A stretch of 64,000 nucleotides of DNA from an uncultured Lachnospiraceae bacterium (GTDB lineage: Bacteria; Bacillota; Clostridia; Lachnospirales; Lachnospiraceae), in NCBI GenBank assembly GCA_947626435.1, contig CANQSB010000001.1, forward strand, positions 248,001 to 312,000. Direction: 5' to 3'. The position numbers and the translations under genes were made by a program. Below the pieces are notes generated by a model. It was not told the origin of the DNA and did no database searches. It saw only the letters and a list, made by a program, of their open reading frames with translations. This document shows positions 38,686 through 58,563 of this stretch, one piece after another. Each line of letters opens with the position of its first letter. Within the stretch, counting starts at the first letter, position 1.

Positions 38686-38739
38686 TAATTGTAAAACGTG
38701 TTCTAAACCGTCCGAATTTAGTTTTGCAAACACCTATAT
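38686..38739. repeat. R1 palindromic repeat, internally deleted copy (E)
   Basis: The left end TAATTGTAAAACGTGTTC and the stretch CTAAACCGTCCGAATTTAG match the outer left part of R1 copies; the last 18 bases (TTTTGCAAACACCTATAT) match the outer right end. The whole central palindrome is missing. It lies in the leader between the sigma-D promoter and the YjfB start. Confidence 0.65.
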
Positions 38740-39003: not shown

Positions 39004-39061
39004 GTGTTTCTATTTCCTAATTACTGAATTATGATGTTCTGATTTCAAGCATAATTCATAT

Positions 39062-39201
39062 AGGCATTTGTGAAACTCTATTCGACAACATAGAATTTAG
39101 GCAAAATATATAAAATAAGCGGCGTCTCGCGGAGCACCCAGCCGCGTTTTTATATATTTTAACTAAATTCGGACAGTTTGGAACACATTTCGCAATTACC
39201 T
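39062..39201. repeat. R1 palindromic repeat, copy A
   Basis: About 140 bp. Outer ends AGGCATTTGTGAAA and TTTCGCAATTACCT are imperfect inverted repeats; inside are GAATTTAG..CTAAATTC, AAAATATATAAAA..TTTTATATATTTT and a GC-rich core AGCGGC..GCCGCG around CGGAGCAC. It lies between the YjfB terminator and the end of cvfB and could also act as a terminator (the core is followed by TTTTT). Confidence 0.85.
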
Positions 39202-39207
39202 AATAAT

Positions 39208-44391: not shown

Positions 44392-44559
44392 GCCCGGACA
44401 GGACAATTCACCCCATTCAGACAACGCTTGCGCTCAGTGAAAAGCGTAGCGGACACTAAGCTCGGCGGCGCGTTAAAAGGAGCTGCGCTTTTAACGCTTG
44501 CTTCGCTAAGTGCCGACGCTTTTCAATGGTCTTCATGGGGTGAATTGTCCTGTCCGGGC
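44392..44559. repeat. R3 multi-stem palindromic element, copy 1 (reverse orientation)
   Basis: 168 bp. The two ends form a perfect 25-bp inverted repeat beginning GCCCGGACAGG. Inside are a tandem G-A mismatch followed by a short helix (AGAC/GTCT), TGAAAAGCG/CGCTTTTCA, CACTTAGC/GCTTAGTG with one mismatch, and the hairpin GCGTTAAAAG/CTTTTAACGC. It is in the opposite orientation to copies at 48631 and 58313. It lies between trmR and trhP and contains no open frame of interest. Confidence 0.93.
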
Positions 44560-48630: not shown

Positions 48631-48797
48631 GCCCGCACAGGATTGTACACCCTATGAAGCCCTTCGGAAAGCGCCGGCACTTAGCGAAACAAGCTGTAAA
48701 AGCGAAGCTCCTTTTACAGCGCCGTTGAGCTTAGTGTCCGCTACGCTTTCCGCCAAGCGGGAGCGGGGCTGAATAGGGTGTACAATCCTGTGCGGGC
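48631..48797. repeat. R3 multi-stem palindromic element, copy 2
   Basis: 167 bp. Perfect 25-bp outer inverted repeat beginning GCCCGCACAGG, then the tandem G-A mismatch and AGCCC/GGGCT, CGGAAAGCG/CGCTTTCCG, CACTTAGC/GCTTAGTG and the hairpin GCTGTAAAAG/CTTTTACAGC; a further small hairpin CCGC-CAA-GCGG. It occupies the space between the mtaB stop and the ireB promoter region. Confidence 0.93.
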
Positions 48798-52273: not shown

Positions 52274-52412
52274 CTATTCGATAACGTAGAATTTAGTCAA
52301 AATATATAAAATCAGCAACGATTCGCCACGTAACTTGTTACGTTGAGCACCAAGTCGCGATTTTATATATTTTGACTAAATTCGGACTGTTTAGAAAACC
52401 TTTAGCATCAGC
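52259..52412. repeat. R1 palindromic repeat, copy C
   Basis: AATTTAGTCAAAATATATAA and its continuation form a perfect 23-bp inverted repeat with TATATATTTTGACTAAATT and preceding bases. The loop holds its own palindrome ACGTAAC-TT-GTTACGT and the GAGCACC core shared with other copies. The right end (GGACTGTTTAGAAAACC) is degenerate. Confidence 0.85.
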
Positions 52413-52424
52413 GTTTTAACATTT

Positions 52425-52541
52425 ACAAGCATTATCCAACAACGTAGAGTTTGAGTGAAATATACAAAATAAGCGGTGCCTTACGGAGCACTGCACCGCG
52501 TTTTTGTATATTTCGCGCAAACTCGGACGGCAGAGAAACCT
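52425..52541. repeat. R1 palindromic repeat, copy D
   Basis: GAGTTTGAG..CGCAAACTC and AAATATACAAAA..TTTTGTATATTT are complementary within the copy but differ from copies A-C at both arms. The core GCGGTG..CACCGC surrounds CGGAGCAC. It ends 3 bases before the stop of the cysteine desulfurase gene. Confidence 0.82.
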
Positions 52542-52543
52542 TC

Positions 52544-53713
52544 TCACACTCCCTCACACCAATACCTAGTATATCTCCTCAACATCGGCACCAGCTCCTT
52601 CAAAACACGCAAAGTATAATCCATATCCTCCTCCGTATTCAATACACTCATACTAAACCGAATCGTCGAATCCAAATACTGCTTCTCAACCCCAATCGCC
52701 TTCAAAGTCACCGAAGCCGACGGCTTATTCGACGAGCACGCACTGCCTGCCGAAACATAAATCCCCTTATCCTCCAGCGCATGCAACATAACCTCACTCC
52801 GCACCCCCTGTATTGACACACTGACCACATTAGGCGCGCCATCCCTACCAAGCGGACCATTTATCCTTATCCCGTCAAGCCCTGCCAGCCCATCCGTAAA
52901 CCTATCCTTTAACGCATACAGATAATTTCTCTTACCCTCCAAATCACTATATGCCTCCTCAGCCGCAAGCGCCATCCCCGCTATCCCCGGGACATTCTCC
53001 GTACCAGAGCGCATCCCTTTCTGCTGCCCCCCGCCAAAAATAATCGGTCTTACCTTCGCCTTTTCATTGACATAAAGAAACCCCACTCCCTTAGGTCCAT
53101 GAATTTTGTGAGCGCTCACAGAAAGCATATCAATATGCATCCGCTTGGGATATATTGCAAACTTGCCAAAACTCTGCACCGCATCAACATGAAACAGCGT
53201 ATTGGGATTAAGGCGCTTTATCAGCTCGCCCGCCTGCTCAATCGGCTCTATCGTGCCTATCTCATTGTTTACATGCATAATAGACACTAAAATCGTACCG
53301 CGCGTCATAGCCTTTTCCAAATCATAAAGACTCACCGCGCCGCTCCTGTCAACAGGCAGGTATGTAACCTGAAAGCCCTGTTCCTCAAGATAAGCGCAGG
53401 TCTGCAGCACTGCGGGGTGTTCTATCCTCGTAGTTATGATATGCCTGCCCGCCCTGTGGTTTGCGTATGCCGCCCCGATAAGCGCTATGTTGTCCGACTC
53501 CGTGCCGCCCGAAGTAAATATTATTTCCTTCTCCTGAACCTTCAAAAGCTTTGCTATCGTCTCTTTCGCATAGCGGATATATTTTTCGCTCTCAACGCCT
53601 TTTCTGTGCATGCTTGACGGGTTTCCGTAGTCCTCGCACATAATCTTTGTCATAAGCGCCGCCACATTCGGCAGGCATCTTGTGGTCGCCGAATTGTCCA
53701 AATAAACTTCCAT
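52544..53713 (-). CDS. Cysteine desulfurase (NifS/IscS family), sulfur donor for ThiI
   Basis: 389 residues from the ATG at 53713; a GTG 9 bases earlier is too near the AAGGG site. PLP-enzyme features: YLDNSATTR at the start, the TSGGTESDNIALIGAA loop, the Schiff-base Lys in SVSAHKIHGPKGVGF and the catalytic Cys in SAGSACSSNKPS. The layout corresponds to class I (IscS-like) desulfurases. It releases sulfur from cysteine as persulfide for thiouridine or Fe-S assembly. The thiI gene follows after two R1 repeats, as in the Bacillus nifZ-thiI pair. Confidence 0.95.
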   Translation of the reverse strand: MEVYLDNSATTRCLPNVAALMTKIMCEDYGNPSSMHRKGVESEKYIRYAKETIAKLLKVQEKEIIFTSGGTESDNIALIGAAYANHRAGRHIITTRIEHPAVLQTCAYLEEQGFQVTYLPVDRSGAVSLYDLEKAMTRGTILVSIMHVNNEIGTIEPIEQAGELIKRLNPNTLFHVDAVQSFGKFAIYPKRMHIDMLSVSAHKIHGPKGVGFLYVNEKAKVRPIIFGGGQQKGMRSGTENVPGIAGMALAAEEAYSDLEGKRNYLYALKDRFTDGLAGLDGIRINGPLGRDGAPNVVSVSIQGVRSEVMLHALEDKGIYVSAGSACSSNKPSASVTLKAIGVEKQYLDSTIRFSMSVLNTEEDMDYTLRVLKELVPMLRRYTRYWCEGV

Positions 53714-55929: not shown

Positions 55930-55963
55930 TGTTGTTTGTCTCCTTTCATAATATAATCAATTT

Positions 55964-56131
55964 AGGCATTTGCGAAATGTGTTCTAAGCCATCCGAATCT
56001 AGTCAAAATATATAAAAATCGCGTCAATGAACTGTATCTCAGATACAGTTCATAGGCGCTCCGCGAAACGCCGCTTATTTTATATATCTTGCCTAAATTC
56101 TATGATGTTGAATAGGGTTTTGCAAGTGCCT
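55964..56131. repeat. R1 palindromic repeat, copy B (reverse orientation)
   Basis: 168 bp. Ends AGGCATTTGCGAAA and TTTTGCAAGTGCCT. The sequence between, read on the opposite strand, matches copy A closely. The loop contains an extra perfect palindrome (13-bp arms, ATGAACTGTATCT). A 13-bp direct repeat, ATATAATCAATTT, flanks it on both sides. Confidence 0.87.
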
Positions 56132-56147
56132 ATATAATCAATTTTTT

Positions 56148-58300: not shown

Positions 58301-58312
58301 TACGATACACTA

Positions 58313-58479
58313 GCCCGAGCAGGGGCATATATCCCATAAGGACCTTGGGAAGCGTCGGCACTTAGCGAAGCAAGCTGTAAAAGCGTAGCTCCTTTTACAG
58401 CGCCGCTGAGCTTAGTGACCGCTACGCTTCCCACTGAGCGCAAGCGATGTCCGCATGGGATATATGCCCCTGCTCGGGC
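58313..58479. repeat. R3 multi-stem palindromic element, copy 3
   Basis: 167 bp. Perfect 25-bp outer inverted repeat beginning GCCCGAGCAGG, GGAC/GTCC, TGGGAAGCG/CGCTTCCCA, CACTTAGC/GCTTAGTG and GCTGTAAAAG/CTTTTACAGC, in the same order as the other copies. It lies between dnaJ and prmA, inside a normally continuous operon. Confidence 0.93.
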
Positions 58480-58563
58480 GACCTCTTACCAACAAAAAAA
58501 ACACCTGCAACAGCCTCCCTTTCTCCAAAAGCTATTGCAGATGTCCAATCTAACCTCTACATA

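Follow-up and report, generated by a model that had tools for sequence, protein, structure and literature searches.

We interpret, with moderate confidence, three multi-helix copies in the window (the 64,000-nucleotide stretch of an uncultured Lachnospiraceae genome that was analysed) as members of a palindromic repeat family that is non-autonomous and probably mobile, with template switching making the two arms evolve together round a constrained folded core. Under this model, replication would expose the repeat as single-stranded DNA, a hairpin would form, and the polymerase would switch template between the two arms, so that a mutation in one arm would be either removed or copied into the other. 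Such quasi-palindrome correction could make much of the covariation described below. The inner core and the flanks mostly escape this levelling, which suggests that a factor responsible for spreading or maintaining the repeat probably recognises the folded form, be it a strand of DNA or of RNA. On this reading, the family preserves quasi-palindrome correction as it happened in nature, since dozens of copies and a set of orthologous pairs display both states, and very strong covariation, which counts as strong evidence of a functional RNA in RNA discovery, can arise at least partly by DNA copying.

The three copies lie at 44392–44559 on the minus strand (168 bp) and at 48631–48797 and 58313–58479 on the plus strand (167 bp each). 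When the window was re-read directly, the 25-bp outer arms of all three were free of mismatches, and comparison by eye bore out the observation of the earlier note that the arms differ between copies at ten of 25 positions, each change being matched in the opposite arm. The covarying inner helices and the invariant segments were also as first described. In copy 3 (all coordinates on the plus strand), the outer part of the fold consists of a 25-bp stem, H1 (58313–58337 with 58455–58479), a 2 × 2 internal loop, a 4-bp helix, H2 (left side GGAC, 58340–58343, pairing with 58449–58452), and a three-way junction. The junction emits a long arm composed of H3 (left side TGGGAAGCG, 58346–58354, pairing with 58425–58433), the core helix H4 with a T·T mismatch, H5, and the apical hairpin H6 (58374–58401), which is the portion varying among genera. 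The second branch is a mini-hairpin, GC-GNRA-GC in general and GC-GCAA-GC in this copy (58438–58445). The conserved core has its left part, GGCACTTAGCGA, at 58357–58368 and its right part, GAGCTTAGTG, at 58408–58417. The inner core in the wider sense comprises CTTAG/CTTAG containing the T·T mismatch, the GA/GA internal loop, the GNRA mini-hairpin at the junction and the flanks. In a profile of 51 places, conserved letters extend into the unpaired flanks for about 12 nt on each side of the element (58301–58312 in copy 3, family consensus approximately GCCAAYAACCTA, and 58480–58492, approximately GACCTSTTGCCA), and the mobile unit may therefore be about 190 bp long. The folding energy of copy 3 was −111.8 kcal/mol compared with a shuffled mean of −57.5 (z = −12.8), and none of 200 shuffles folded as well. 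No Rfam family reached its gathering score over an element in the window, where a tRNA was the sole match. In a permissive Rfam scan of six loci, the elements gave just a match to MIR2950 on the L115 element (both strands), which was sub-threshold (28.4 bits versus the 76 needed) and was taken as generic hairpin likeness.

DNA search and a covariance model built from 37 copies located the element at 51 places in its own genome, G000 (3.7 Mb in 98 contigs, 95.8% complete); two module-carrying places among them were lengthened by hand from partial matches. The sister species, G017, has the element at no fewer than 43 places, namely 35 of full length, 6 with an extra hairpin and 2 partial. Two further genomes of the same genus, G002 and G004, gave a single distant match apiece, and none was found in the remaining 20 of the 23 other genomes of the genus when 71 candidates were scored per genome. 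Across the family, the element keeps a core of the form ACTTAGCGA...GAGCTTAGT, and the apical hairpin and the arms vary. As an exact pattern, GGYACTTAGCGA-N(9-39)-GAGCTTAGTR, this core was found in 21 of 299 family genomes and 4 of 398 phylum genomes (the own genome being included in both counts), and the reversed control pattern had no match among the matches listed. The named records with a similar pattern (at least 120 stretches) were, among the matches listed, mostly labelled Lachnospiraceae, together with [Clostridium] symbiosum, Butyrivibrio, Mogibacterium, Anaerovibrio and a few others, some of which are perhaps misbinned. Among the copies listed for a comparison between genera, the arms and the apical hairpin diverge widely, and the core is alike, as are the letters around H2 and around the mini-hairpin. 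Together these matches document a superfamily of repeats in Lachnospiraceae and in some of their relatives. The palindromic arms of L089 and L111 are far longer than those of the window family and reach the edge of the stretch printed.

We aligned 79 rows from the two species (76 distinct; one G017 copy was entered twice via two loci) to the covariance model, so the alignment leans towards the structure of the model. Paired cells amounted to 99.0%, compared with 87.8% in column shuffles. Cells changed on both sides numbered 541; shuffles gave 110, and slid controls no more than 98. A change on both sides was seen in 45 of 63 pairs. The covariation score was 0.349, compared with 0.123 for shuffled columns and 0.043–0.100 with the partners slid. 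The outer stem was perfectly Watson–Crick in 56 of the 79 rows, among which there were 64 distinct left arms. The pairing is real and maintained, and the covariation is far beyond chance. Covariation by itself is no proof of a working RNA, and RNA-level selection does not follow from it here.

To see how the arms change in place, we compared orthologous copies of G000 and G017. At 23 filled sites, 42 pairs had changed on both sides with pairing kept, 27 had changed on one side and 1 had changed otherwise. This count leaves out five further filled sites with modules or deletions, as well as the pair L010/L053, in which the G017 element is inverted relative to its flanks; with that pair included, there were 45 both-side and 29 one-side changes, and 10 of 25 compensated changes, corresponding to the 9 of 22 below, lacked a wobble intermediate. 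The ratio of 42 kept to 27 one-sided indicates that the element is not simply a decayed transposon, and it goes some way against a possibility raised in the earlier note, that changed arms lose their pairing as often as they retain it; one-sided changes in the arms are not rare. At two of the sites, L016/L084 and L006/L231, the orthologous copies belong to different element types, 10 pairs being changed on both sides at either site, and the element looks as though another copy had taken its place. The other 21 sites had 22 compensated and 25 one-sided changes, and by hand count no wobble intermediate was present in 9 of these 22 in-place compensated changes. One-sided changes are therefore close to or above compensated ones in number, and selection for pairing could also serve as an explanation.

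More direct evidence of arm-to-arm copying came from single copies. The inner left arm of L074 in G000 is the reverse complement of its right arm, bar one later difference, and the internal loop between H1 and H2 is closed, GA having become TC; in its G017 ortholog L236, for which both flanks are orthologous, the inner left arm is canonical. The inner arm of L239 in G017 is rewritten likewise and that of L019 in G000 is canonical, the orthology here being supported by the right flank only. A third rewritten case, L073, carries its own arm-specific letters, and no ortholog of it was seen; its inner tract fits its own opposite arm and not those of L074 and L239. Over the 79 rows, the H1/H2 loop was GA/GA in 56, GA/TC in 6 and fully complementary in 10, and the state differs within four orthologous pairs (L237/L017, L240/L036, L074/L236 and L238/L081). 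When stretches of one arm, normally unpaired bases among them, take on the reverse complement of its partner, they bear the footprint of template switching at a quasi-palindrome, and RNA selection gives no evident reason for turning conserved unpaired bases into exact complements. An inverted apical loop, which is a possible but not required footprint of template switching, was found in none of the 79 rows. Assembly or library artefacts at hairpins may be a source of rewritten arms.

Where pairing fails, the kind of exception bears on whether the strand is kept as RNA. In the outer stem, 1972 cells contained 8 G·U, 9 A·C and 5 other exceptions; a tRNA control of 204 cells had 14 G·U exceptions and lacked A·C ones (Fisher p 0.0013). 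The control is small, with 17 sequences and short helices, and its register was picked by Watson–Crick pairs. The outer arms of the superfamily gave 23 G·U versus 42 A·C, or 32 versus 46 in another extraction. H3 behaved otherwise in the two species, with 20 G·U versus 2 A·C among related copies (16 versus 1 in an alternative count, p 0.0003, not corrected for relatedness); in H3 of the superfamily the numbers were 15 and 10. All stems of the two species taken together gave 40 and 27. Judged from ORFs by a simple rule, the orientation to flanking genes is neutral (20 ++ and 14 −− in G000; 29 and 35 in the superfamily). Of 192 elements, 179 had the mini-hairpin GC-G..A-GC or a variant in which one pair is compensated, and 13 had neither; the third loop base was a purine in 178 of the 179; since the search required the outer G and A, only this third base is a test. 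Loops of the G..A type are very stable in DNA also, and the purine bias therefore does not decide between RNA and DNA. Nearly all copies retain the mismatches of the core, although rewriting is able to remove them, so these mismatches are probably under selection; the loop purine bias together with the G·U excess in H3 points to an RNA role for the core. These counts suggest simple controls for other cases of strong covariation, namely the ratio of G·U to A·C exceptions and the share of double changes without a wobble step.

Presence and absence of the element were then compared between the two species. Both flanks of 35 G000 places were found in the G017 sequence examined; 28 of these places were filled in the same orientation, 1 was inverted and 6 were empty, including those of window copies 1 and 2 (copy 3 has a filled counterpart). 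The other empty places correspond to C6:80437, C43:16578, C1:35999 and C1:37246, the last two of which carry identical copies in G000. Conversely, the G017 places C2:25644 and C2:34667 are empty in G000. Such a comparison does not tell insertion from deletion, and deletion could partly mimic the pattern. ATTAT bounds the extra DNA on both sides at window copy 2 only, the other empty sites being too diverged to read, and no clear target duplication was readable at the empty sites of either species. Half-elements and distant inverted ends were inspected for an autonomous copy over 3.1 Mb (overlaps included), and none carried a gene. A partner of the REP/RAYT kind was rejected, as the Y1 transposase profile PF01797 had no match in G000, while 5 of 14 control genomes were positive. 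The reverse transcriptase profile RVT_1 had one match in G000 and one in G017; it also matched in two of three same-genus genomes without the repeat, G009 and G010 (not in G012), and had none in the core carrier G122, and a reverse transcriptase was likewise not retained as partner. Phage carriage was dismissed as well, because the two matches in viral_contigs lacked paired arms and were judged by eye to be chance. With no Y1 transposase, autonomous copy or clear duplication found, mobility is argued from copy number and from presence and absence; a trait in common with MITEs is the presence of many dispersed intergenic copies without a gene. Two loci are unusual in arrangement. At L053:1181-1683, which matches L010 and lies in G017, the element runs opposite to its flanks and adjoins a partial second copy, perhaps through palindrome-mediated inversion or a separate insertion. 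At L031:2000-2164 and L031:3247-3411, two identical direct copies lie 1.25 kb apart in G000 and are absent in G017.

The earlier note had offered two options: the element is a structured RNA, or it is a hairpin of DNA that is copied by way of its folded state. Of these, the DNA side is better supported, by in-place arm rewriting, strand-symmetric exceptions, changes without a wobble step and copies in both gene orientations, and some of the core data favour RNA. A functional structured RNA that selection keeps paired, and whose copies spread because they are useful or are retrocopied, would account for the purine in the third position of nearly every G..A mini-hairpin loop, the conserved internal loops, the strong folding and the G·U excess of H3 in the two species, and the single reverse transcriptase gene in each of them would suit retrocopying. 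We nevertheless consider it unlikely, because G·U is not in excess in the outer 25 bp or in the superfamily arms, nor clearly so in superfamily H3, orientation shows no preference, normally unpaired loops have been rewritten into perfect pairs, and no Rfam family reaches its gathering score. It also seems doubtful that the repeat is in the first place, like attC sites or REP/RAYT pairs, a single-stranded DNA hairpin serving as substrate for a shape-recognising recombinase or nuclease. Arms and tip that vary round a conserved core, conserved flank letters on both sides and strand-symmetric arm exceptions would all fit such a substrate; the lack of a PF01797 match in G000 and of a gene-bearing copy in the sequence examined argues against it, the enzyme search having covered Y1 transposases and reverse transcriptases.

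Copy-to-copy gene conversion or decaying transposon ends could in principle leave covariation as a by-product with no arm-to-arm process, and the seemingly replaced elements of L016/L084 and L006/L231, like the inverted element with its partial extra copy at L010/L053, look like events of that sort. We regard this as quite improbable for the family as a whole, since the rewritten inner tracts fit their own opposite arms when donors are checked among the aligned rows, 22 compensated changes are left at the other 21 sites, and so many of the left arms are distinct. Very unlikely, finally, is a role as transcription terminators or mRNA 3′ ends between genes: the copies are intergenic, tandem and convergent sites outnumber divergent ones, and copies 1 and 2 each have one terminator-like match inside the apical hairpin, but the 51-place profile has no T tract beyond the right end, terminator-like matches are near the shuffle expectation, and the element occurs in both orientations and is present or absent between sister species. 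Template switching between the arms of a probably mobile repeat thus remains our preferred reading. A bolder extension of it, to which we attach a low probability, is that spreading takes place in the form of a folded single strand, and that an enzyme new to such repeats picks this strand out by its shape (the conserved flanks and the GNRA-capped three-way junction). If this were true, arm sequence would be free to drift, with arm-to-arm copying keeping the arms pairable. Lachnospiraceae and their relatives would then possess a mobile element addressed by shape and distinct from the RAYT/REP and integron/attC systems known so far.

Several known repeats resemble the element in part. The bcr1 repeats are non-autonomous and intergenic, RU-1 and RU-2 are palindromic, and attC sites have variable paired arms, conserved unpaired bases and a variable terminal structure. 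The arms, unpaired bases and tip of the present element are attC-like, but there is no cassette array, and the copies stand singly between genes. According to the accessible part of the source, bcr1 of the Bacillus cereus group is dispersed, 167 bp long and predicted to have a conserved secondary structure (PMC2267715, which cites a title on the mobile element characteristics of bcr1). The present repeat is likewise dispersed, structured and of similar length, a likeness in kind that is drawn from description and not from sequence comparison; it differs in that bcr1 is reported as specific to the B. cereus group and in that the same accessible text does not mention arm rewriting (PMC2267715). 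RU-1 (127 bp) and RU-2 (168 bp) are described, in the available portions of two papers, as small mobile sequences of enterobacteria that belong to the ERIC class, are intergenic and are MITE-like (PMC2759123, PMC2229807). They share size class and intergenic position with our element, again by description and not by sequence or fold, and come from another lineage. The GTAG and CGTC REPs are 20–40 bp long with stems of 5–13 bp and high copy number; the CGTC type, defined in the accessible text by a length of 20–40 bp, an 8–9 bp stem and an unpaired CGTC tag, is reported there from five phyla, Firmicutes not among them, and has no known dedicated transposase (PMC3733652). The present element is also palindromic, of high copy number and without a known transposase, and the letters CGTC precede its core. 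Membership in the CGTC REPs was rejected, as the element is 167 bp long and its CGTC lies inside the fold with paired surroundings; unlike REPs in general, it has a 25-bp variable outer stem round a multi-helix core. Hairpin maintenance by template switching has been proposed, on the basis of ancestral reconstruction, for RNA genes and microRNA loci (PMC8794818, accessible part). The process proposed here is the same, in that reverse-complement copying makes or mends pairing and produces multibase compensatory changes, whereas the present case concerns a bacterial repeat that is scattered in many parallel copies and can be compared between orthologous pairs. No description of this repeat was found in the literature searched, in which subscription papers were covered incompletely; as far as that search reaches, the family, its breadth in Lachnospiraceae and the record of in-place arm rewriting look new.

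Some copies carry additional modules. An extra hairpin is inserted within the mini-hairpin of L033, L037, L065–L070 and L080, as a palindromic module starting with approximately ATCAAAACGGAAAGATTTTC, and is missing in the orthologs L084 (of L033), L008 (of L068) and L013 (of L065). A start resembling that of the ATCAAAACGGAAAGATTTTC module adjoins L081 in its right flank. A short hairpin precedes H6 in L076, L077, L078 and L080. A NiCo riboswitch matched above the gathering score at L076:3333-3425. In the window, a separate terminator-like hairpin lies on the minus strand at 58499–58546, in the space that separates dnaJ from element copy 3. The window also contains another family of dispersed repeats, at 38686–38723, 39058–39203, 52274–52548 and 55962–56135; it has perfect 25-bp arms at 52289–52313 and 52359–52383, and related copies occur in G017 and elsewhere in G000.
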